From NCBI GenBank assembly GCA_013177825.1, contig JABLXX010000008.1:124001-188000 (forward strand): a stretch of DNA of 64,000 nucleotides, given 5' to 3'. Numbering within the stretch: position 1 is the stretch's first letter; every line of letters starts with the position of its first letter. The notes under the pieces are model-generated. The model saw only the letters and a program-made list of their open reading frames with translations. It had not been told where the DNA came from and did no database searches. Of the stretch, positions 54,730 through 64,000 are shown piece by piece. The position numbers and the translations under genes are program-made. The stretch is from Syntrophaceae bacterium (GTDB taxonomy: Bacteria; Desulfobacterota; Syntrophia; Syntrophales; PHBD01).

Positions 54730-55179
54730 CTATGCCTTTCGGATCTGAAAACTCCCTCGGGCCATGCAACAGACGGTTCCGTTCTCGTCTTTCAATTCGA
54801 ACTCTTTTACGAAATCCGCCTTCCCGACGCTGTCCGCCATCTTCTTCAGCTCCTCGATCTCGCTCTCGGTGAACGTCGCCTCGATGGTCATGTCGCTCAT
54901 GGCAGGACGCCTGTAGACGATCGACGCCTCCTTCAGGATGGGGATATATTTTTTCAGGTCAAAACAGGAACTGAAGAGAACGCCCCCCGTGTAATCCGCC
55001 AGCGAGAAGAGCGATCCGGCATAGACCATGCCGACGTGGTTGATGTTCGGCTCCTTCGGCAGCCGGACTTTCACGGCTCCCGGATCGAACTGCTCGATCT
55101 TCACCCCCATCTTGCCGACAATCTTGATGATGTTCTCCAGGGCGGCTACGGTTTCCTTCTTCGACTCGCTGATGGCCAT
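54730..55179 (-). CDS. Hotdog thioesterase-like protein (DUF4442/PaaI type)
   Basis: Protein of 149 residues with a single hotdog domain. The helix-strand motif NHVGMVYAGSLFSLADYTGGVL matches the YiiD_C/DUF4442 and PaaI-like groups, which hydrolyse acyl-CoA thioesters. The end ENGTVCCMARGSFQIR is the last strand. It may remove stalled CoA esters from the neighbouring ene-reductase pathway. AAAAGGAGG fixes the start. It is the last gene before a strong terminator. Confidence 0.82.
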   Translation of the reverse strand: MAISESKKETVAALENIIKIVGKMGVKIEQFDPGAVKVRLPKEPNINHVGMVYAGSLFSLADYTGGVLFSSCFDLKKYIPILKEASIVYRRPAMSDMTIEATFTESEIEELKKMADSVGKADFVKEFELKDENGTVCCMARGSFQIRKA

Positions 55180-55255: not shown

Positions 55256-57187
55256 TCAGGCCTTCAGGCCGGCGGCCAGCCCCTCCTGCATGGCCTCCTT
55301 GATCATGCGAGGCCGGACGCAGTCGCCTACGACGATGACTTCCGGGGCTTTGCCCTGAAATGCCTCAACCGCCTTCGGGTCGACCCGGAGGCCTGCGGCG
55401 AGAACGACCCAGTCCGCCTCGATGAATTCAGGGGTCCCCTGCCGGTTGACCTTCACGCCCCGGTCGGTGATCTCCTCCACGGTCGTCCGGTTCTCCAGGC
55501 GGATGCCCAGCATCTTCAGCATCCCCAGGAAAAACGGCCGATAGCTGGCCGAGACCGTCGGCGCCAGACGGTCCAGCATCTCCAGGACGGTGACGCTCGC
55601 AATGTCCTTGGCTTTCGCCATTAGAAACTCCGCCGTCTCGCATCCCACGAGGCCTCCGCCCAGGACGACAACCTTCCCCCGGACGGTCTTCTTCCCTGTC
55701 AGGACGTCCTCCGCGGAGACCACGCTGTCCGAACGGATGCCCGGGATGTCCGGGACAATGGGCACGGCACCGACCGCCACGACCAGGACATCGGGCTTCT
55801 CGCGCTCGACGGTCGCGACGTCCAGGACGGTCCCCAGGCGGATCTCGACGCCGGCCTTGCGGGCCCGCACGGCCAGGCTCTCTGCCAGGTTCCGGATGTC
55901 CTCCTTGTAGGGCGGCAGGCACCCTACCCGGAGCCAGCCTCCCGGCTCGTTTTCCTTCTCGAAGAGCGTGACCCTGTGCCCCCGTTCGGCGGCGATGAGG
56001 GCCGCCTCCAGCCCCGCGGGACCGCCGCCGGCAACGAAGACTTTCCCGGGCTTGTCCGCCGCCGCGGGAACGAAATCAAGCTCGCGGCCCGCAAAGGGGT
56101 TGACCGTGCAGGAGACCGAGGCGGGACCGTGGGGGTCCTTGTAGATGACCAGGATGTCGGAGAGGCAGTTTCCACAGGCCAGGCAGGGAACGATCTCCCC
56201 GACTCGCCCTTCCCTCGCCTTGTTCGGGAGGTGCGGATCCGCAATGAGGGCCCGGCCCACACCGACGAAGTCCGCCTTCCCCTCCGCCAGGATCCGCTCG
56301 GCCGTGACCGGGTCGTTGATCCGGTTCGCGGCGATGACGGGGATGCCGACGGCGCCCTTGATCGCCCCGGCGAGGTCCGCAAAGCCGCCCTTGGGGACGA
56401 AGGGGGCCACGGTCGGCACCCGCGACTCATGCCAGCCGGTGTACGTGTTGATGAAGCTCACGCCTGCTTCTTCGAGAGCCCGGGCCACGCCCTTCGATAT
56501 CTCGATCGTGTGTCCCCCGGGCATCTGCTCCTCCACATTGAGGCGCACGCCCAGCGGGAAGTCATCCCCCGCCTCCTTCCGGATGGATGCGACGATCTCC
56601 AGGAGGATCCGCATCCGGTTTTCCAGGCTTCCGCCGTACTCGTCCTCCCGCTGGTTCGTGGTGGGCGAGAGGAAGCGGTTCAGGAGGTAGCCGCCGCCCA
56701 CGATGAACTCGACAGCGTCGAATCCCCCCTCGCGGGCCCGGCGGGCCGACGTTCCGTATTCCCTGACGATGTGGTGAATCTCGTCCACTGTGAGAGCCCG
56801 GGGAGTCTGCCGCAGCATCTGGTTCAGCACGGGGGAGGGACCGACCAGCTCGGCCGGCCTGTCCCCGAAGGACACATGATAGGAAACGATGAGCTGGCAG
56901 GCGCTTTTTGCCCCTTCCTTTCGGAGGACATCCGTGAGCCGCCGGATTCCCGGCAGGTACCGGTCGTCGTACACGGCCGGAACAAGAAACGTCCCGACGT
57001 CGAGAGGCGAAAAGGGGATCATGATCAGCCCGGCGCCCCCCTTTGCCCGCTCGCCGAAATAGGCGATGAAGCGGTCGCCGACGGTGCCGTCGGCCTCGGA
57101 ATAACCCATGGTCATGGGCAGCATGACGATCCGATTCCTGGTTTCCAGGTTTCCGATGCGTCCGGGTGCAAACAGATGCGAAAACAT
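55256..57187 (-). CDS. FMN/Fe-S/FAD ene-reductase (2,4-dienoyl-CoA reductase family)
   Basis: Modular flavoenzyme of 643 residues. Residues 1-330 are an old-yellow-enzyme FMN barrel (GYLLNRFLSPTTNQR; His253 in TGWHESRVPT). A Fe-S site follows with Cys335, 338, 341 and 360; the C-x2-C-x2-C spacing is one residue shorter than in E. coli FadH. Residues about 380-640 bind FAD and NAD(P)H (VFVAGGGPAGLEAA, VVLGGGLVGCETAE). Such enzymes reduce dienoyl-CoA, enoates, trimethylamine or aromatic rings. AAGGAG precedes the ATG. It probably belongs to a TetR-controlled group. Confidence 0.9.
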   Translation of the reverse strand: MFSHLFAPGRIGNLETRNRIVMLPMTMGYSEADGTVGDRFIAYFGERAKGGAGLIMIPFSPLDVGTFLVPAVYDDRYLPGIRRLTDVLRKEGAKSACQLIVSYHVSFGDRPAELVGPSPVLNQMLRQTPRALTVDEIHHIVREYGTSARRAREGGFDAVEFIVGGGYLLNRFLSPTTNQREDEYGGSLENRMRILLEIVASIRKEAGDDFPLGVRLNVEEQMPGGHTIEISKGVARALEEAGVSFINTYTGWHESRVPTVAPFVPKGGFADLAGAIKGAVGIPVIAANRINDPVTAERILAEGKADFVGVGRALIADPHLPNKAREGRVGEIVPCLACGNCLSDILVIYKDPHGPASVSCTVNPFAGRELDFVPAAADKPGKVFVAGGGPAGLEAALIAAERGHRVTLFEKENEPGGWLRVGCLPPYKEDIRNLAESLAVRARKAGVEIRLGTVLDVATVEREKPDVLVVAVGAVPIVPDIPGIRSDSVVSAEDVLTGKKTVRGKVVVLGGGLVGCETAEFLMAKAKDIASVTVLEMLDRLAPTVSASYRPFFLGMLKMLGIRLENRTTVEEITDRGVKVNRQGTPEFIEADWVVLAAGLRVDPKAVEAFQGKAPEVIVVGDCVRPRMIKEAMQEGLAAGLKA

Positions 57188-57474
57188 ATCCTGCTCCTTT
57201 CGTGAAAGCCCCCCCTGAGGGACGGTCTCCCGGCCCGTCAGCCGGTCATCAAAAGCGGAATGACCGTTGCGGGGCTTCCTTTGAACTGGTTCTTCCTTCC
57301 CATGCAATGCCCCGCAAATCCGGTGCCAACCGGCTTGCTATCGGTATCGCGTATGATATCGATGGTGTACGGAAAGACGGGGTGTCTGTTCCCCGCTTTT
57401 CATTGGACAGAAGTCAACATACGGACTGCACCCCTGACAGCGACCTCAGGGCGGCTGTTCCCGATCCCGGTCCG

Positions 57475-58143
57475 TTATGACGACCAGACGGTGATGCTGT
57501 CGACAGGCTCACGCGGGCTCTCGAGCCGGTTGGCCGGAAAGTCCGGGTTGGGATAGCCGATGGCGATGGCAATGACGATCCGGTCCGAATCGGGGATCCG
57601 GCCGTGTTTCCGCACCACGTCCGGATACATCACCCCCTGGTCCTCGATGCACGTTCCCAGCCCGTGCTCCAGTGCCGCCAGGCAGATGCTCTGCATGACG
57701 GCCCCGACGTCCAGGATGCATGTGCCTTCAAGCAGCGCCCGGTCCGTCAGGAGGATGATGGCGGCCGGTGCGTCGAAAAAGCGGAATCCCCGTTCGAGCC
57801 AGCGCGCCCTCTCCTCCTTGTCCTCCCTCCGGATGCCCATCCGTTCGAACAGCTGCATGGCCAGCGCCACCTGGCGTTTCCGGTACACACTGTCCGGGGA
57901 CCATCCCACGACCGGGTGCTCTTCTTTGGGTATTTCCCCGGCCCTGAGCTTCTCGACATTCTCCTTCTTGATCCTCTCCAGGGCGTCGCCCGTTACGACC
58001 AGGAACTTCCAGGGCTGCGTGTTCATGGCCGACGGCGCCCGGCCGGCGGTTTCCAGGATCTCCCGCAGGATGTCCCGGGGAACCGGATCGGGTTTGAATT
58101 CGCGGATGCTTTTTCGTTTCCTGATGGCCTCGGAGATGTTCAT
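57475..58143 (-). CDS. Nitroreductase-family flavoprotein
   Basis: FMN protein of 222 residues. The start MNISEAIRKRKSIREFKPDPVP and the core APSAMNTQPWKFLVVTG are the family FMN-binding signature; GTCILDVGAVMQSICLAALEHGLGTC forms the dimer interface. The end IAIGYPNPDFPANR is also typical. It probably reduces nitro, quinone or enone compounds with NAD(P)H. AAGGAGG is nine bases before the ATG. A 287-base gap without a gene separates it from the ene-reductase gene. Confidence 0.9.
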   Translation of the reverse strand: MNISEAIRKRKSIREFKPDPVPRDILREILETAGRAPSAMNTQPWKFLVVTGDALERIKKENVEKLRAGEIPKEEHPVVGWSPDSVYRKRQVALAMQLFERMGIRREDKEERARWLERGFRFFDAPAAIILLTDRALLEGTCILDVGAVMQSICLAALEHGLGTCIEDQGVMYPDVVRKHGRIPDSDRIVIAIAIGYPNPDFPANRLESPREPVDSITVWSS

Positions 58144-58337
58144 CTTGACGGTCCTCCTTGTTCGGGCTGCCGGATGAAGAATGTCCCGATTCCGATTAGC
58201 GTTTCCCCGGTGCGGCACATTCACACCGGACACGGATCGATGCACGGCCCCGGCACGGATCGCAGCACCCCGGAGTCCGCCCGGATCTTCACGCTGCCCG
58301 CCCATCCAATAAGGTATCCTGCCGGGCATGAACTTAA

Positions 58338-58997
58338 TTAGACTATGAACGTGCTCATTGATGCGTTCAATTCGTGCGTGTGCAGGCCATCGATGAAAAT
58401 CCCCAGATAGTCCAGCGTCGCCTTCCGGTAATCCTTTTTCCCTTGTTTCATCCGATTCTCCTGGAAGTGAATCATGCCGATGAAGACGCTCCAGAATATG
58501 ACCGCACCCGCATACGGATTGATGTTCTTGAAAACTCCCTTTTCAACGCCCTCCCGAATGACGATCTCCCCCTGCTCGAGGTTGCACCGCATGATGCACT
58601 TGAAGCGCGCCAGCCTGTCCTCCGGCAGCAGCTTCGGGTACTCATCCTCGTTGTAGCGGATCAGGAAGAAATACTCATCCGTGTCCCTTTCATAGAAATC
58701 GTAGATCGCCCGGCCGAGTCGGCGCATGCGGTTGTCAGGTCCGTCTTCCTTGTCCTGGGCGATCTCAATCAGGCGCTTGGAAAGGGATTCGAGCGCCGGC
58801 TCGACCAGGCAGAAATAGAGATCGGACTTGCTCTTGAAATACAGATAAATGGTTCCCTTGGCAATCTTGGCGCGGGCCGCGATGTCTTCGATGGTCGAAT
58901 CCCGGAACCCCTTCTCCCGAAAGACGGCCGCCGCGCTGTCGAGAATCAGTTTGACTCTGGCGTTTCTCTCCGTCTGTTTTCTTTCAGCAACACCCAT
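58338..58997 (-). CDS. TetR-family transcriptional regulator
   Basis: Repressor of 219 residues. The helix-turn-helix reads ILDSAAAVFREKGFRDSTIEDIAARAKIAKGTIYLYFKSKSDLY (residues 18-60), a textbook TetR N-terminus. The C-terminal ligand domain is similar in kind to fatty-acid-metabolism regulators (FadR/FabR-like TetR), though this is not decisive. A perfect 16-base palindrome lies 46 bases upstream of the start. The gene heads the nitroreductase/ene-reductase/thioesterase group and likely represses it. Confidence 0.93.
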   Translation of the reverse strand: MGVAERKQTERNARVKLILDSAAAVFREKGFRDSTIEDIAARAKIAKGTIYLYFKSKSDLYFCLVEPALESLSKRLIEIAQDKEDGPDNRMRRLGRAIYDFYERDTDEYFFLIRYNEDEYPKLLPEDRLARFKCIMRCNLEQGEIVIREGVEKGVFKNINPYAGAVIFWSVFIGMIHFQENRMKQGKKDYRKATLDYLGIFIDGLHTHELNASMSTFIV

Positions 58998-59194: not shown

Positions 59195-59231
59195 GAAAAA
59201 AAGGCCGGAACATCGTGGAGGTTCCGGCCTT
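59195..59231 (-). terminator. Intrinsic terminator after the ligase/desaturase-like operon
   Basis: Minus strand stem AAGGCCGGAAC / GTTCCGGCCTT with a nine-base loop, followed by seven T. It lies 43 bases beyond the flavoprotein stop at 59274. Confidence 0.93.
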
Positions 59232-59273: not shown

Positions 59274-60791
59274 TCAGGAGACGCCGTAGTCCTTCCCGGT
59301 GATCCGGGAGGCACAGATCAGGCCCGCCGCCACCGCGCAGTCCATGGCCACGCCGTACCCCTTTACCGTGTCGCCGGTGAAGTACAGCCCCGCCACGCCG
59401 GGGGCCTCGACGGGGGCCTTCAGGGTGCCCGCCTGGGTCTTGGACTTCGCCACTCCCTCCAGCTTCCAGGCCGTTGGGAAGAGGGCCCAGTCCACGCTCT
59501 TCTTGAACCCGGGGTAGCGGCGCTCCAGGTAGTCGATGATGAGCCGGCAGGCCTTGACCATCAAATCCCTGTCTTTTGCCTCCTTTTCCGTGACCGGGGC
59601 GTAGGCCGTCATCAGGTGCTTTCCTCCGGGGGCGCAGGAGGGATCCGTCTGGGACTGGATGTTCCAGCACATGTAGACGTTGTATTCGAAGCCTTCTTCC
59701 TTCGGGATGACGTAGGTGTCCTTCACCCCGACCTTCCACTCCCGCTCCGGCAGGACGAGCCGGTTCAGCCCGAAGTAGGGCGCGATGGAGCCGTACCCGT
59801 AGAGGCCTTCCATCCGGTCGGCCCACTCCGCGGGAAAGGCGCCCTTGTCGGCCACTTTGAAGATGTCCTGAATCGGGATATTGCTGACCACCTTCCCGGC
59901 GGTGATTTTCCGGATGGCGCCGGATCCGTCTTCAACGGCGACGCCGACGGCCTGCCCGTTTTCGATCAGGATCTCCCGGACGCGGGCATTCAGCTCCAAG
60001 GTGCCGCCCAGCTCCCGGAAGCGGTTGGCCACGGCCTGGCTCCAGCGCATGATGCCGCCGGTGGTGAACCCGGAGGGCCACCTGGCCCGCCCGGCCTTGA
60101 AGCGCGGATTGATCACCTGCCCCATGTAGCGGAAGATGTCGCCGATGGAAATGTCGTCGGGATCGTTGATCGTCGTGATGAGGGTCGAGACGGCGTGGAT
60201 CATGCCGAAGATCGTCTTGTTCTCGTAGAGTCCGTTTTCCCTGCACCACTGGGTAACGGAAACGGATTCCAGGCGGTCGAAGTCCTCGTCCTTGAGCCTG
60301 GCCGCCGCGAGATAGAACTTGACGAAGGGAATCCTGTTGTCCTCCGCGATCTTCTTCAGACGCTCGTCCATCTTCCCGGCATCGAAATCCAGGTACCATT
60401 CATCGCCGATATACGTGCTGTTGATGTTTCCCACCATGGGAACGCCGGTGCCCAGCCGCTCGTCGAGATCCAGGAAATACCCGTCGCCGTTGAGGGCCAC
60501 GCCGTGATAACCCACGTCCAGCGTGTAGCCTTTCAGCATCTGCCGGGCGATGATGTCCTCCAGGACCGGCTCGGCATAGGGGATCCAGGTGTACTGTTTC
60601 GCCAGGAGCGACTTGTACCAGGAGGCTCCGTGCCACAGGATCTCCTCCCCGCGGATCGTCAGGGCCCGTCCCCCGACCCGGTCGCACTGCTCCACCAGGA
60701 GCGTCTTCCGTCCTTCCTTCGCGGCCAGGGAGGCGACGGTCAGCCCGCCGACTCCGGCTCCGACGACGATTACATCATAATTTTCTTCCAT
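59274..60791 (-). CDS. Phytoene-desaturase-like FAD oxidoreductase
   Basis: Flavoprotein of 505 residues. The dinucleotide motif DVIVVGAGVGGLTVASLAAK (residues 6-25) is followed by VEQCDRVGGRA. The C-terminal FAD motif is GVAGLYFTGDTVKGYGVAMDCAVAAGL. The middle carries FTTGGIMRWSQAVANRFRELGG, a family feature. Relatives include phytoene desaturases, retinol saturases and amine oxidases; the substrate is not known. No carotenoid genes (crtB, crtE) are near, so carotenoid synthesis is not supported. It has its own AT-rich upstream region. Confidence 0.85.
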   Translation of the reverse strand: MEENYDVIVVGAGVGGLTVASLAAKEGRKTLLVEQCDRVGGRALTIRGEEILWHGASWYKSLLAKQYTWIPYAEPVLEDIIARQMLKGYTLDVGYHGVALNGDGYFLDLDERLGTGVPMVGNINSTYIGDEWYLDFDAGKMDERLKKIAEDNRIPFVKFYLAAARLKDEDFDRLESVSVTQWCRENGLYENKTIFGMIHAVSTLITTINDPDDISIGDIFRYMGQVINPRFKAGRARWPSGFTTGGIMRWSQAVANRFRELGGTLELNARVREILIENGQAVGVAVEDGSGAIRKITAGKVVSNIPIQDIFKVADKGAFPAEWADRMEGLYGYGSIAPYFGLNRLVLPEREWKVGVKDTYVIPKEEGFEYNVYMCWNIQSQTDPSCAPGGKHLMTAYAPVTEKEAKDRDLMVKACRLIIDYLERRYPGFKKSVDWALFPTAWKLEGVAKSKTQAGTLKAPVEAPGVAGLYFTGDTVKGYGVAMDCAVAAGLICASRITGKDYGVS

Positions 60792-60846
60792 GTCTATTCC
60801 CTCGATTCACCTTGACTACCATGAGGCAGAGCTTTAATACCAATAC

Positions 60847-60874
60847 TTAATAACTTGATATTATTAACATTATA
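60847..60874 (-). promoter_or_regulatory. AT-rich operator/promoter region of the flavoprotein gene
   Basis: TTAATAA-N7-TTATTAA, a perfect inverted repeat at 60847-60867, beside a minus-strand TATAAT at 60874-60869. No clear -35 is seen. Confidence 0.4.
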
Positions 60875-60883
60875 CTAACCATA

Positions 60884-62416
60884 TTATTCTTCATTGATGA
60901 TCTTCCGGATCTCCCGCTTGAGAACCTTGCCCAGTGTTGTTTTCGGCAGCCCATTGAGGAAGAATATTCGCTTCGGTGCCACGAACGCCTTCATGTTTTC
61001 GTTCAGATAGGCAAGAAACTCCTCTTCCGTGGTCTCCATTCCCGGCTTCCGGGTAATCGCGGCGGCCACTTCCTCCCCGAACTTCTCGTCCTTCATGCCG
61101 ACGACGGCGCACTCCATGACGGCGGGATGCTTGTAGAGGATTCCCTCGATGACTCCGGGATCGATGTTCTCGCCTCCCTTGATGATCAGGTCCTTCTTGC
61201 GGCCGGTGATGTAGAGCTCCCCGTCCTCGTCGAGCCGCCCCAGGTCGCCCGTGTGGAACCAGCCGTCTTTCAGGACCTCGGCCGTTTCCTTCGGCTTGTT
61301 CCAGTACCCCTTCATGACGACGGGTCCCTTGCAGATGACCTCCCCCTCCGCTCCGCGGGGAACTTCCCGGCCGTTGTCATCGACGATGAGCAGGCTCATG
61401 GAGGCGATGGGCGCACCTGCGCTTCCCGGCTTGATGGGCCGCTCATGGTGCTGCCGGGTGATGGTGCCGGCCGTCTCGGTGCACCCGTAGGAAACCCGGA
61501 TGTCCGCGCCGAACAGCTTCATCGCCTGCACCTGCGTCTCCACGCTGAGGGGGCCGCCGGCGGAGATGAACATCTTCGACGCCGACAGGTCGTCTTTCTT
61601 GGGGTCGAAGACCATCATCATGTAGACGATCATGGTCGGGACCAGGGGGGTGTATTCGAGCCGGTACTCGCGGATTGCGTCCAGCACTTTCCGCGGATCG
61701 AAGGGCTGCATCATATAGGTGATGGTGCCGACGTAGTTGCCCTCCAGGCAGGTGAGAACCCCCAGGATGTGGTTCATGGGGACGGTGACCAGCACGGTCG
61801 ACATGTACTCGCACCCGGTGTAGACGACGCCGTTGCGCATCTGGGCTTCCATGTTGCGATGGGTGATCATCACCCCCTTGGGAACGCCCGTCGTGCCGGA
61901 CGTGTACATGAGGATGGCCACGTCTTCCGCGTCCACCGTCTCGATGTCCCCCCCGCCGTCGGCTTCCTTCAGGACATCCGTGTAGGATACCGTGTCGTCG
62001 CGGGTCTCACCGCCGATGACGATGATCTTCCCGACCGACGCCACCCCCTTGGCGGCCTCCAGGATCTTCGGGAGCAGCATCGTCTCCGTGATGATCACCC
62101 GGGCACCCGAGTCTTCCAGGATGTAGCGGATCTCCGCCGCCGTGAGCAGGAACACCACGGGAAGGTAAATGGCGCCGCACCGGTTGATGCCGTTGATGAT
62201 CTCGGGGATCTCCGGCACGTTGCTCACGACCGTACAGATGGCGTCTCCCCGTTTTATTCCCGCCTTCTTCAGTCCCGCGGCCAGGGCCTGCGCCCGGCTG
62301 CGGATGTCCGTGTTCCTGATCCGCCGGGGTCCGTCGTTCCCCAGGAAAACGAACTGCTCGTACTCGCCGTAGGTCTCGATGTTGCGATCCAGAAAGCGCG
62401 CGATGTTGCGATTCAT
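60884..62416 (-). CDS. Acyl-CoA synthetase (AMP-forming)
   Basis: Ligase of 510 residues. P-loop MYTSGTTGVPKGVMITH, then SYGCTETAG, GWFHTGDLGRLDEDGELY, the hinge GRKKDLIIKGGENI and the C-terminal Lys in KTTLGKVLK. It activates a fatty or other carboxylic acid to its CoA ester. The ATG 62416 has AAGGGGGGA upstream. It lies between two phytoene-desaturase-like genes, and a third ligase gene begins the run at the right edge of the window. Confidence 0.93.
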   Translation of the reverse strand: MNRNIARFLDRNIETYGEYEQFVFLGNDGPRRIRNTDIRSRAQALAAGLKKAGIKRGDAICTVVSNVPEIPEIINGINRCGAIYLPVVFLLTAAEIRYILEDSGARVIITETMLLPKILEAAKGVASVGKIIVIGGETRDDTVSYTDVLKEADGGGDIETVDAEDVAILMYTSGTTGVPKGVMITHRNMEAQMRNGVVYTGCEYMSTVLVTVPMNHILGVLTCLEGNYVGTITYMMQPFDPRKVLDAIREYRLEYTPLVPTMIVYMMMVFDPKKDDLSASKMFISAGGPLSVETQVQAMKLFGADIRVSYGCTETAGTITRQHHERPIKPGSAGAPIASMSLLIVDDNGREVPRGAEGEVICKGPVVMKGYWNKPKETAEVLKDGWFHTGDLGRLDEDGELYITGRKKDLIIKGGENIDPGVIEGILYKHPAVMECAVVGMKDEKFGEEVAAAITRKPGMETTEEEFLAYLNENMKAFVAPKRIFFLNGLPKTTLGKVLKREIRKIINEE

Positions 62417-62507
62417 GTGCAAAGTCCCCCCTTTGGAATGATCGAATGAAAGGGGCGGAGGGCCCGCAAGGCCCCCTGCCCCCGAATGAACCTGAATTGG
62501 AATGCTG

Positions 62508-63860
62508 CTACTTTCCCTGCCGGGCCAGGATCTCACCGGCGCAGATCATGGCGGAGCTGGCGGCCGTGTTCATCCCGACGCCCCGCCCCGTGTAGCAGTC
62601 GCCGGCAAAATACAGCCCCGGCACCTCGGGAAGGAAAACGGGAAGCCTGTACCGCCCAGTCATTCCGGGTGAACGACTCAGGCCGTCGATCCCGATGGTG
62701 AAGCCGTCCTGCCTCCACACCAGGTCCCGCTCCACGTTAGGAAACATTTTTTTAACGACCTCCCAGAACTGTTCCAGGGTCTTCTTGCGGAACTCCGCGT
62801 TCCCGATCTGCGCCGGCGTGCCGCAGGCCCCGATGAAGGCGATCATGTGCCCCGGGGGCGCGATCGTGTCGTCGAAGTTCGTGTGCCCCAGGATCTGCAG
62901 TGGCAGCCCCACGCCGGGCACGCGCCAGGCGGAGAGGTAGCACTTGTCGGTGAACAGGGGCACCCTGGTTCCGATGGTGAAGCCCGTGGACGCGCTGGTC
63001 TCGAACTCGCATTCCTTCATGCGCTTCGCCCAGGCCGGGGCGAACTGCGCCATCTCGTCCATGGAAAGGAACCGGAGCACGTTCCAGATGGGCGCGGCGA
63101 TGACGACGATCGGCGCGGAATACGCGCCGCCATCCGTCACAACCTCCGTCATTTCCCCCTTGCGGACGTTGACCTTCCGGATCGGCGTCCCCAGGTTGAG
63201 CGTTCCTCCCCTCTCGCGGTAGGCCGCCTCCATGGCCGCCATCATCGTCGCGACGCCGCCCAGGGGCATCCGCACCGCGTTGAAGGGAAGGTCCGGGCTG
63301 ATGGAGACGCGGATCTGGTCCCGGTAGATGTGGATGAACTCGCCCGCGGAGATGATGTCCGACTCCGTCAGGGTCGTCTGGACCATGCCGACGGTCTTGC
63401 AGAACTCGGCGATCCGGGGAGACTTCACCTTCTCTTCGAGGAGCTTCGTCAGCGAGACGTTGTCGTAGTGGTCGATGATCTCGTCCGTGGCGGAACCGAT
63501 CCACTTCTGCAGGTCCAAAAGCTCCTGCTTTTCGCCCGCCGAGAGGTTCAAGTACTCCATCATGGGCTTCCACGTTCCGTCTTCGTCGTAGAACATGAAG
63601 CCCTCCAGGTTGTGGGACCAGGGGATCTCCTTTCCCAGGACCTGGAGCAGCTTGTTGCAGGACGAGTGGATGCCCTGGTCGACACAGTGCGTTCCCATGT
63701 CGATCCGCCAGCCGCCGGGAAGCTCGAATGTTCTCGAACGCCCGCCGACGACCTTGCTCTTCTCGAAAACCGCCGTCTTCAGGCCCTTGTCCTGGAGAAG
63801 ACTGCCAACGCCGAGGCCGGCGATGCCGGCCCCGACAATGATTGCATCGTACTTTCCCAT
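62508..63860 (-). CDS. Phytoene-desaturase-like FAD oxidoreductase
   Basis: Flavoprotein of 450 residues, paralogous in layout to that at 59274. The FAD motif is AIIVGAGIAGLGVGSLL and then EKSKVVGGRSRTF; the C-terminal motif is GLYFAGDCYTGRGVGMNTAASSAMIC. A MPLGGVATMMAAMEAAYRERGG segment is also typical. It likely oxidises or reduces a C-C bond in a hydrophobic compound, or isomerises it. ACGGAGG precedes the ATG. It starts 15 bases after the stop of the partial ligase gene at the window edge. Confidence 0.85.
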   Translation of the reverse strand: MGKYDAIIVGAGIAGLGVGSLLQDKGLKTAVFEKSKVVGGRSRTFELPGGWRIDMGTHCVDQGIHSSCNKLLQVLGKEIPWSHNLEGFMFYDEDGTWKPMMEYLNLSAGEKQELLDLQKWIGSATDEIIDHYDNVSLTKLLEEKVKSPRIAEFCKTVGMVQTTLTESDIISAGEFIHIYRDQIRVSISPDLPFNAVRMPLGGVATMMAAMEAAYRERGGTLNLGTPIRKVNVRKGEMTEVVTDGGAYSAPIVVIAAPIWNVLRFLSMDEMAQFAPAWAKRMKECEFETSASTGFTIGTRVPLFTDKCYLSAWRVPGVGLPLQILGHTNFDDTIAPPGHMIAFIGACGTPAQIGNAEFRKKTLEQFWEVVKKMFPNVERDLVWRQDGFTIGIDGLSRSPGMTGRYRLPVFLPEVPGLYFAGDCYTGRGVGMNTAASSAMICAGEILARQGK

Positions 63861-63874
63861 AACGGCCTCCGTTC

Positions 63875-64000
63875 TTATTTTCTTCCCAGCTCCTTCTTCA
63901 TCTCATGGTAGAGATCGAGCTTCTTGACCTTTCCCAGCGGCGTCAGCGGCAGCATGGGACGGACGATGATATCCTCGGGAAGCTTGAAGTTGGAGAGCTT
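63875..64000 (-). CDS. Acyl-CoA synthetase, C-terminal end only
   Basis: The last 41 codons of a gene entering from outside the window. The sequence reads FKLPEDIIVRPMLPLTPLGKVKKLDL, matching the C-terminal lysine loop (TPLGKVKK) of AMP-forming acyl-CoA ligases. It belongs to the same transcript as the flavoprotein at 62508 (15-base gap). Confidence 0.75.
   Translation of the reverse strand, partial: KLSNFKLPEDIIVRPMLPLTPLGKVKKLDLYHEMKKELGRK

Follow-up and report, generated by a model that had tools for sequence, protein, structure and literature searches.

Acyl-CoA ligases and phytoene-desaturase-like flavoproteins share an operon in a Syntrophaceae bacterium

Introduction

What might flavoproteins resembling phytoene desaturase do in an operon that also encodes acyl-CoA ligases? 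The question is raised by one end of a 64,000-nucleotide stretch of DNA from a Syntrophaceae bacterium (C8:124001-188000 of genome G000, 4.24 Mb in 25 contigs), the whole of which is called the window here. Two genes for AMP-forming acyl-CoA ligases, LIG1 and LIG2, alternate there with two genes for flavoproteins, PD1 and PD2. The organism is uncultured and probably an anaerobe, to judge from its named Desulfobacterota relatives. To our knowledge, little is understood of the anaerobic breakdown, in sediments and groundwater, of acids that are isoprenoid, otherwise branched, or unsaturated. Our tentative answer is that the genes belong to an operon for the catabolism of acids that are unsaturated or branched, and perhaps isoprenoid, with the PD enzymes possibly remodelling carbon-carbon double bonds. 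As far as we have found, this would place a known enzyme superfamily, within acyl-CoA operons, in a role that has apparently not yet been described.

Gene organization

The genes lie on the minus strand of the window and are transcribed in the order LIG1 (3′ end), PD1, LIG2, PD2, followed by a terminator-like hairpin. The order of ligase, flavoprotein, ligase, flavoprotein and terminator, from right to left, that the original prediction had read from the letters is confirmed by the coordinates and by Pfam matches:

63875..64000, minus strand: 3′ end of LIG1 (last 126 bases), AMP-forming acyl-CoA ligase; the gene runs on to about 65458
63875-65458 (L009 9876-11459), minus strand: full LIG1 gene, partly beyond the window
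62508..63860, minus strand: PD1, FAD flavoprotein of 450 residues, amine oxidase/CrtI superfamily (PF01593, 77.6 bits)
60884..62416, minus strand: LIG2, second AMP-forming acyl-CoA ligase (PF00501, 268.9 bits; PF13193, 62.2 bits)
59274..60791, minus strand: PD2, second flavoprotein, 505 residues (PF01593, 66.7 bits)
59196..59229, minus strand: intrinsic-terminator-like hairpin 3′ of PD2 (stem 59203-59229 and a T-run)

Stop-to-start distances are 14 bases for LIG1-PD1, 91 for PD1-LIG2 and 92 for LIG2-PD2. Both ligases belong to the AMP-forming acyl-CoA ligases (ANL superfamily) by their AMP-binding domains, which score 309.4 bits in LIG1 (C8:188307-189416) and 268.9 bits in LIG2, against a Pfam cut-off of 29.9. 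The best NCBIfam model for LIG1 is the long-chain-fatty-acid--CoA ligase PRK06187, at 435.4 bits against a cut-off of 476. The Amino_oxidase scores of PD1 (77.6 bits) and PD2 (66.7 bits) lie well above the Pfam cut-off of 19.8. The likely start of LIG2 is the ATG at 62416, placed after a AAAGGGGGGAC stretch that makes a good ribosome site; the listed open reading frame begins at the GTG at 62536. The hairpin is formed by the inverted repeat GGCCGGAAC with a 9-base loop (-20.0 kcal/mol for a 47-base segment), and its T-run on the minus strand appears as an A-run on the plus strand, at 59196-59202. A terminator consensus scan, confined to loops of at most 8 bases, did not list it.

Extending the sequence past base 64000, as had been suggested with the original prediction, brings the 5′ half of the operon into view. 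In transcription order it consists of a GltD-like flavoprotein (best model 404.2 bits, cut-off 516), a geranylgeranyl (GG)-reductase-type flavoprotein (TIGR02032, 156.4 bits, slightly below the cut-off of 158.8), a frameshifted thiolase and an acyl-CoA dehydrogenase of 611 residues, and then LIG1. The first two genes overlap by 4 bases, and the gaps that follow are of 145, 39 and 88 bases. The C-terminal part of the thiolase (L009 13384-14600) lies in another frame, indicating either a pseudogene or an assembly error. The upstream acyl-CoA dehydrogenase, thiolase and flavoproteins thus define an acyl-CoA operon, of which the genes in the window are the 3′ half.

Family placement of PD1 and PD2

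PD1 and PD2 share about 24% identity, and both score far under the cut-offs of every NCBIfam family listed (the best 25 of 29 families for PD1 and of 47 for PD2). The best match of PD1 is HpnE (TIGR03467), at 71.7 bits against a cut-off of 283.05 (PD2, 36.8 bits), while that of PD2 is carotenoid isomerase, at 64.1 bits against 586.9. The CrtI-type phytoene desaturase model TIGR02734, with a cut-off of 238.1, gives 55.1 bits for PD1 and 61.6 for PD2.

A midpoint-rooted tree was built from 35 proteins, with seven plasmid proteins annotated as carotenoid enzymes as the carotenoid references, and without CrtISO or the PD-type gene at C1:979447. The seven carotenoid enzymes form a clade of their own (support 100/99) that contains neither PD1 nor PD2. 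A second clade of 21 rows (support 100/96) holds the PD1, PD2, PD2′, PD4-like and PD5 proteins; within it PD2 forms a subclade with PD2′, a type found in the thiolase/DUF35 clusters described below. PD3, a tandem pair on contig C3 and a gene on C6, all of the window genome, fall outside both clades. The positions of CrtD, an Anabaena protein, PD3, the C6 gene and others are unsure, as their branches are long. The C3 genes (L012 7348-10643) are sisters (100/100) placed on the side of the carotenoid enzymes (93/87), in a genome that has no phytoene synthase match.

PD1 and PD2 probably represent a non-carotenoid branch of the CrtI/amine-oxidase superfamily, as far as sequence comparison can tell. 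The original prediction had noted that carotenoid synthesis genes were not visible and that grouping of the flavoproteins with a known activity would speak against it. No carotenoid genes are seen near the operon, no match to SQS_PSY (phytoene/squalene synthase) was found in the G000 assembly, with 7 of 14 control genomes positive, and neither the NCBIfam cut-offs nor the tree with the seven carotenoid enzymes groups PD1 or PD2 with a known activity. Synthesis of carotenoids or hopanoids, to which the operon is linked by superfamily membership only, was rejected as highly improbable: the carotenoid and HpnE models score far below cut-off, the synthase match is missing, and the carotenoid enzymes cluster apart. 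The likeness to CrtI-type phytoene desaturases and CrtISO is thus one of superfamily, and the differences from the CrtI-type enzymes lie in the sub-cut-off scores, in the separate clade (in a tree that has no CrtISO) and in the lack of a phytoene synthase match. An annotation as ‘phytoene desaturase’ in such genomes should not be taken to imply carotenoid synthesis.

By profile, the nearest solved relative of PD2 is the phytoene dehydrogenase 4dgk (1.3e-13), which we take to be CrtI from Pantoea. For PD1 the nearest are the structural-genomics oxidoreductases 3nrn and 3ka7, which have no assigned function, and amine oxidases. AlphaFold2 models made from shallow alignments are poor, with a mean pLDDT of 61.0 for PD1 and 46.9 for PD2; a Foldseek search with the PD1 model returns an amine-oxidase fold at TM 0.32-0.43 and rmsd above 21 Å among the best 50 matches listed. 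No match was found in viral contigs, nor in plasmids for PD1. PD2 matches 87 plasmid records, none covering 80% of the query; the best 40 of the 87 cover at most 51% at up to 30.3% identity.

Conservation of the ligase-flavoprotein pairing

Relatives of PD1 occur at eight loci in named metagenome-assembled genomes (MAGs). They are 97% identical in HGW-Deltaproteobacteria-19 (same genus), 67% in Syntrophaceae UBA2251 and in a Lac Pavin Deltaproteobacteria MAG, 55% in Deltaproteobacteria AUK176, and 53 and 54% in two uncultured Dehalococcoidia bins, one of which has a partial second copy (50%). The eighth, at 96%, is on a contig labelled Phycisphaerales Planc_01 (L048). This contig carries an operon about 95-97% identical to ours for most genes, with a partial LIG2 at 84%, and ends inside LIG2; it may be misbinned.

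At 7 of 9 loci, from Desulfobacterota-type and Dehalococcoidia MAGs, the gene immediately upstream of PD1 encodes a CoA ligase; when three near-identical copies count once, this becomes 5 of 7. The ligase is of the LIG1 type in the window genome and in G001, L048, G308, L052 and L053; in G119 it bears an AMP-binding_C_2 domain, presumably of the phenylacetate-CoA-ligase type. The exceptions are G007, in which a thiolase directly precedes PD1, and L054, the second copy in the L052 genome, in which an extra gene separates PD1 from a ligase 31% identical to LIG1. Within the window genome itself, an AMP-binding domain is encoded on the same strand no more than 1.5 kb away for 5 of the 10 PD-type genes, where 3.5% would be expected per gene (0.35 in total). 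The binomial P of about 1e-5 treats the genes as independent and ignores contig ends; it overstates the case, since PD1 and PD2 come from a single operon and genes of acyl-CoA metabolism tend to lie together, and with PD1 and PD2 counted once the count is 4 of 9. Another ligase-flavoprotein pair of this genome is found at L010 6212-10219 (C8:46-50 kb), where PD3, a PD-type protein of a different kind, stands beside a ligase sharing 70% identity with LIG1 and is accompanied by a gene for an enoyl-CoA hydratase.

The exact alternation of ligases and flavoproteins is not conserved. In G001, whose PD1 is 97% identical, the gap from PD1 to PD2 is 204 bases and contains no LIG2. A search for LIG2 covered seven whole genomes. 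The best match anywhere in G001 is 59% identical, similar to a paralogue on contig C21 of the window genome (60%), and the orthologue has therefore gone while related ligases remain. In G144, where a full LIG2 was not found at E <= 1e-100, a remnant of roughly the last 200 residues persists in two frames just before a PD2 of 85% identity. The adjacency of LIG2 and PD2 is thus shared among relatives, with LIG2 being lost, and the stable core of the near-identical copies consists of the acyl-CoA dehydrogenase, LIG1 and PD1, joined by PD2 if the contig extends that far. Where the original prediction saw two pairs of acid-activating and redox enzymes, both kinds of enzyme are present and the LIG1-PD1 pair is widely kept; a fixed two-pair unit is not, given the loss of LIG2 in G001 and its erosion in G144. 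It also knew of no described system with this arrangement, and we likewise found no published description of ligase-PD pairs of this kind among the papers listed, in a search that mostly left subscription literature outside. The recurring pairing of an acyl-CoA ligase with a non-carotenoid PD relative provides testable candidate enzymes.

At E <= 1e-75, PD1 is found in 4 of the 155 genomes searched from the class and in 2 of 395 in a sample of the phylum, with its own genome in both counts, and PD2 (E <= 1e-80) in 8 of 155 genomes of the class, including the roughly 50% identical PD2′ type. A check for co-occurrence, which had been proposed with the original prediction, gave a divided result: PD1 and PD2-type genes are found together in all five Desulfobacterota-type genomes with PD1 (G000, G001, G007, G119 and G308; on the same contig in four), and each is also found alone. 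PD1 is without a PD2-type match in both Dehalococcoidia genomes, and in the Planc_01 MAG, whose contig ends before PD2; conversely, 4 of the 8 genomes with a PD2-type gene (G064, G065, G144 and G145) have no PD1 orthologue.

This distribution bears on the nearest described precedent, in which two such flavoproteins are encoded by neighbouring genes. CtmAB and the delta-24-steroid desaturase (delta-24-SD) are two-flavoprotein enzymes of oxygen-independent terpene and sterol degradation, with subunits 27% and 26% identical, respectively, and CtmAB is of the COG1233 phytoene dehydrogenase type (PMC4109377 and PMC11061730). By analogy, PD1 and PD2 might form a heterodimer that oxidises a terpene or sterol side chain at an allylic carbon, with the ligases acting on the resulting acid. 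Their 24% identity resembles that of the known subunits, they lie in one operon and are adjacent in G001, they occur jointly in the five Desulfobacterota-type genomes, and PD1 retains a histidine in the region of the covalent-flavin motif. The sequence there is GWRIDMGTHC, and the eight PD1 proteins keep a T-H placed two residues later than in the covalent-FMN consensus; the T-H is missing in all seven PD2 and PD2′ proteins, and the published consensus GF[LR]x[NS][TL]HA occurs in none of the 35 proteins, PD1 and PD2 included. Moreover, limonene dehydrogenase needs an acceptor of positive potential and may not operate in highly reduced systems, according to PMC12583861. The motif comparison and the separate occurrence of the two proteins weaken an obligate heterodimer despite the joint presence in all five genomes, and we regard this reading as quite unlikely. 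CtmAB and delta-24-SD, which are likened here by description, also have a hydrocarbon or a steroid ketone as their substrate, unlike the acid or acyl-CoA proposed for PD1 and PD2.

Pieces of PD2 were also found in two genomes with more distant PD1 proteins:

L037 4444-5265: PD2 fragment, G007, 89% identical; PD1 there 66-67%
G535:C52:6136-6621: PD2 fragment, genome of AUK176, 86% identical; PD1 there 55%

As these pieces are closer to the window than the PD1 of the same genomes, they suggest horizontal movement of PD2.

Related gene clusters

PD2′, PD1 or both are found in clusters together with beta-oxidation genes, SCPx-type thiolase-fold proteins and ChsH2/DUF35 proteins, on contig C11 of the window genome and in G007, G119, G064, G144 and L052. 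Many neighbouring genes in the relatives were named by eye from the starts of their proteins. A subset was assigned by family search: 3-hydroxyacyl-CoA dehydrogenase in G064 and G119, enoyl-CoA hydratase in C11, acyl-CoA dehydrogenase in G064, SCPx-type proteins in C11, G007, G064, G144 and L052, and ChsH2/DUF35 domains in C11, G007, G064, G119 and L052. One such cluster, in G064, contains both PD2′ and PD2 along with a BKACE enzyme. Next to PD2′ in G064 and G001 are CrtC-like proteins that score 21.5 and 20.3 bits with PF07143, below the cut-off of 22.5. Neither the GHP nor the NEAF motif is present in the SCPx-type proteins, although classical thiolases from these clusters contain both; a pattern for the active-site cysteine matched none of these thiolase-fold proteins, classical thiolases included, and so carries no information. 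The two large clusters are:

L015 1-11546 (contig C11): SCPx, ChsH2/DUF35 and PD2′ cluster, with a BKACE gene (named by eye)
L070 1338-19620: SCPx, ChsH2/DUF35 and PD2′ cluster, with PD2, BKACE (by family search) and a weak CrtC-like protein

These are candidates for a retro-aldol degradation route. In steroid side-chain degradation, a thiolase-related aldolase and its DUF35 partner cleave a tertiary hydroxyacyl-CoA by a retro-aldol reaction (PMC8399759). A methyl-branched isoprenoid chain may pose the same chemical problem. The SCPx-type and ChsH2/DUF35 proteins of the related clusters recall, by their sequences, the Ltp2-ChsH2(DUF35) system; such proteins are absent from the window operon itself, and for one SCPx-type protein other acyltransferases and a benzoylsuccinyl-CoA thiolase subunit score above the lipid-transfer protein 6ok1. 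A more specific route can be imagined for Desulfobacterota and Dehalococcoidia, in which CrtI-superfamily flavoenzymes would move or remove double bonds beside methyl branches on CoA-activated chains, with retro-aldol cleavage by SCPx and ChsH2-DUF35 proteins encoded elsewhere in the genome. We consider this anaerobic isoprenoid-acid route doubtful; if true, the phytoene-desaturase superfamily would gain a new biochemical role.

A rival reading concerns ring acids. The ligases could activate alicyclic or aromatic-derived acids, with the PD enzymes dehydrogenating or reducing the ring, which we hold to be unlikely, if the most serious of the rival explanations. It draws on four SCPx-type proteins of the related clusters that score 84-145 bits with the model of the benzoylsuccinyl-CoA thiolase BbsB (cut-off 750), on the OYE/BaiCD-like reductase downstream of the operon, on the AMP-binding_C_2 domain of the ligase before PD1 in G119, and on the 277.6 bits of LIG1 with a cyclohexanecarboxylate-CoA ligase model (cut-off 792.3). 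However, no ring-specific family is above its cut-off among the operon proteins (best 25 families each), the ligases score highest with the fatty-acid ligase model, and the OYE, nitroreductase and TetR genes are without counterpart in the matching stretch of G001. The flavoproteins of benzene activation described in 2026 were set aside as members of different superfamilies, being GlcDEF-like (PMC13101534) or related to VAO/PCMH (PMC13416013).

Proposed function

The catabolic acyl-CoA reading is based on the operon running, with short spacing, into genes for an acyl-CoA dehydrogenase, a thiolase, a GG-reductase and a GltD-like protein, and on genes of the PD1 and PD2 types adjoining 3-hydroxyacyl-CoA dehydrogenase, enoyl-CoA hydratase, thiolases, SCPx and ChsH2/DUF35 elsewhere. 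From the gene content and layout, the pairing, the missing phytoene/squalene synthase match and the distinct clade we infer a catabolic direction, remodelling of double bonds and a class of substrates. LIG1 and LIG2, to judge by their family, would convert carboxylic acids to CoA thioesters. PD1 and PD2 would rework double bonds of the acid or the acyl-CoA, enabling beta-oxidation led by the upstream acyl-CoA dehydrogenase, and the GG-reductase-type and GltD-like flavoproteins may deliver or take up the electrons for this chemistry. The likeliest substrates would be unsaturated, methyl-branched acids of the isoprenoid type. The original prediction had suggested a pathway on long-chain or isoprenoid acids, for example saturation or desaturation of an acyl-CoA; in broad terms that view is a reasonable one, with both substrate and direction still conjectural.

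As limonene dehydrogenase needs a positive-potential acceptor, the same logic makes isomerisation or saturation by the PD enzymes appear more likely than net dehydrogenation in a reduced anaerobe. The polyunsaturated fatty acid isomerase (PAI) is a flavoprotein of the CrtI/amine-oxidase superfamily. This bacterial enzyme converts linoleate to trans-10,cis-12 conjugated linoleic acid (PMC13365329). It is likened to PD1 and PD2 by description, no molecule named PAI being present in the lists of Protein Data Bank matches, and redox-neutral chemistry for PD1 and PD2 is put forward as a hypothesis.

Several points weigh against a catabolic role. Substrate and activity are predictions from gene content, and the isoprenoid substrate is a guess from weak family matches (PD, GG-reductase, CrtC-like). 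In G001 and L048, which hold the operon copies nearest to this one, no thiolase occupies the corresponding position, and the GltD and GG-reductase genes are broken in G001; it follows that not all parts are needed. The poor structure models make an argument from the active site impossible and were given no functional weight.

A biosynthetic direction is conceivable. PD genes and a phenylacetyl-CoA-ligase-like gene occur in syntenic lipid clusters of Kuenenia and Desulfotalea psychrophila (PMC2649909), for which synthesis of such lipids has been proposed, and this precedent, with PD-type flavoproteins and a CoA-ligase-like gene in anaerobes, would favour an operon for polyunsaturated or modified lipids. 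In the precedent, FabF paralogues and radical SAM genes are part of the clusters, whereas the operon here is of the CoA type, with its acyl-CoA dehydrogenase, thiolase and CoA ligases; neither FabF paralogues nor radical SAM proteins were recognised among the eight operon proteins (Pfam; best 25 NCBIfam families). Biosynthesis of the ladderane or polyunsaturated fatty acid type is accordingly a minor rival, and an improbable one.

Neighbouring genes

A TetR-family regulator gene, a possible regulator of the operon, lies 276 bases downstream of PD2, at the start of a region (55256-58997) that separates PD2 from a thioesterase gene and holds three genes, for the TetR regulator, a nitroreductase and an OYE/BaiCD-like reductase. 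The features with coordinates are:

58338..58997, minus strand: TetR-family regulator (PF00440, 59.5 bits)
55256-57307: OYE/BaiCD-like reductase (477.6 bits, cut-off 825)
54730-55179: thioesterase

Counterparts were sought in the locus stretches of relatives. The TetR, nitroreductase and OYE genes have no tblastn match in the corresponding G001 stretch (L072) and therefore look like a local insertion; the thioesterase does match there, at 90.6%.

The window genome has 61 AMP-binding matches in its 4.24 Mb and appears to hold a large set of acid-activating enzymes; two of them resemble LIG2, with 60% identity for the one on C21 and 53% for the one on C22.

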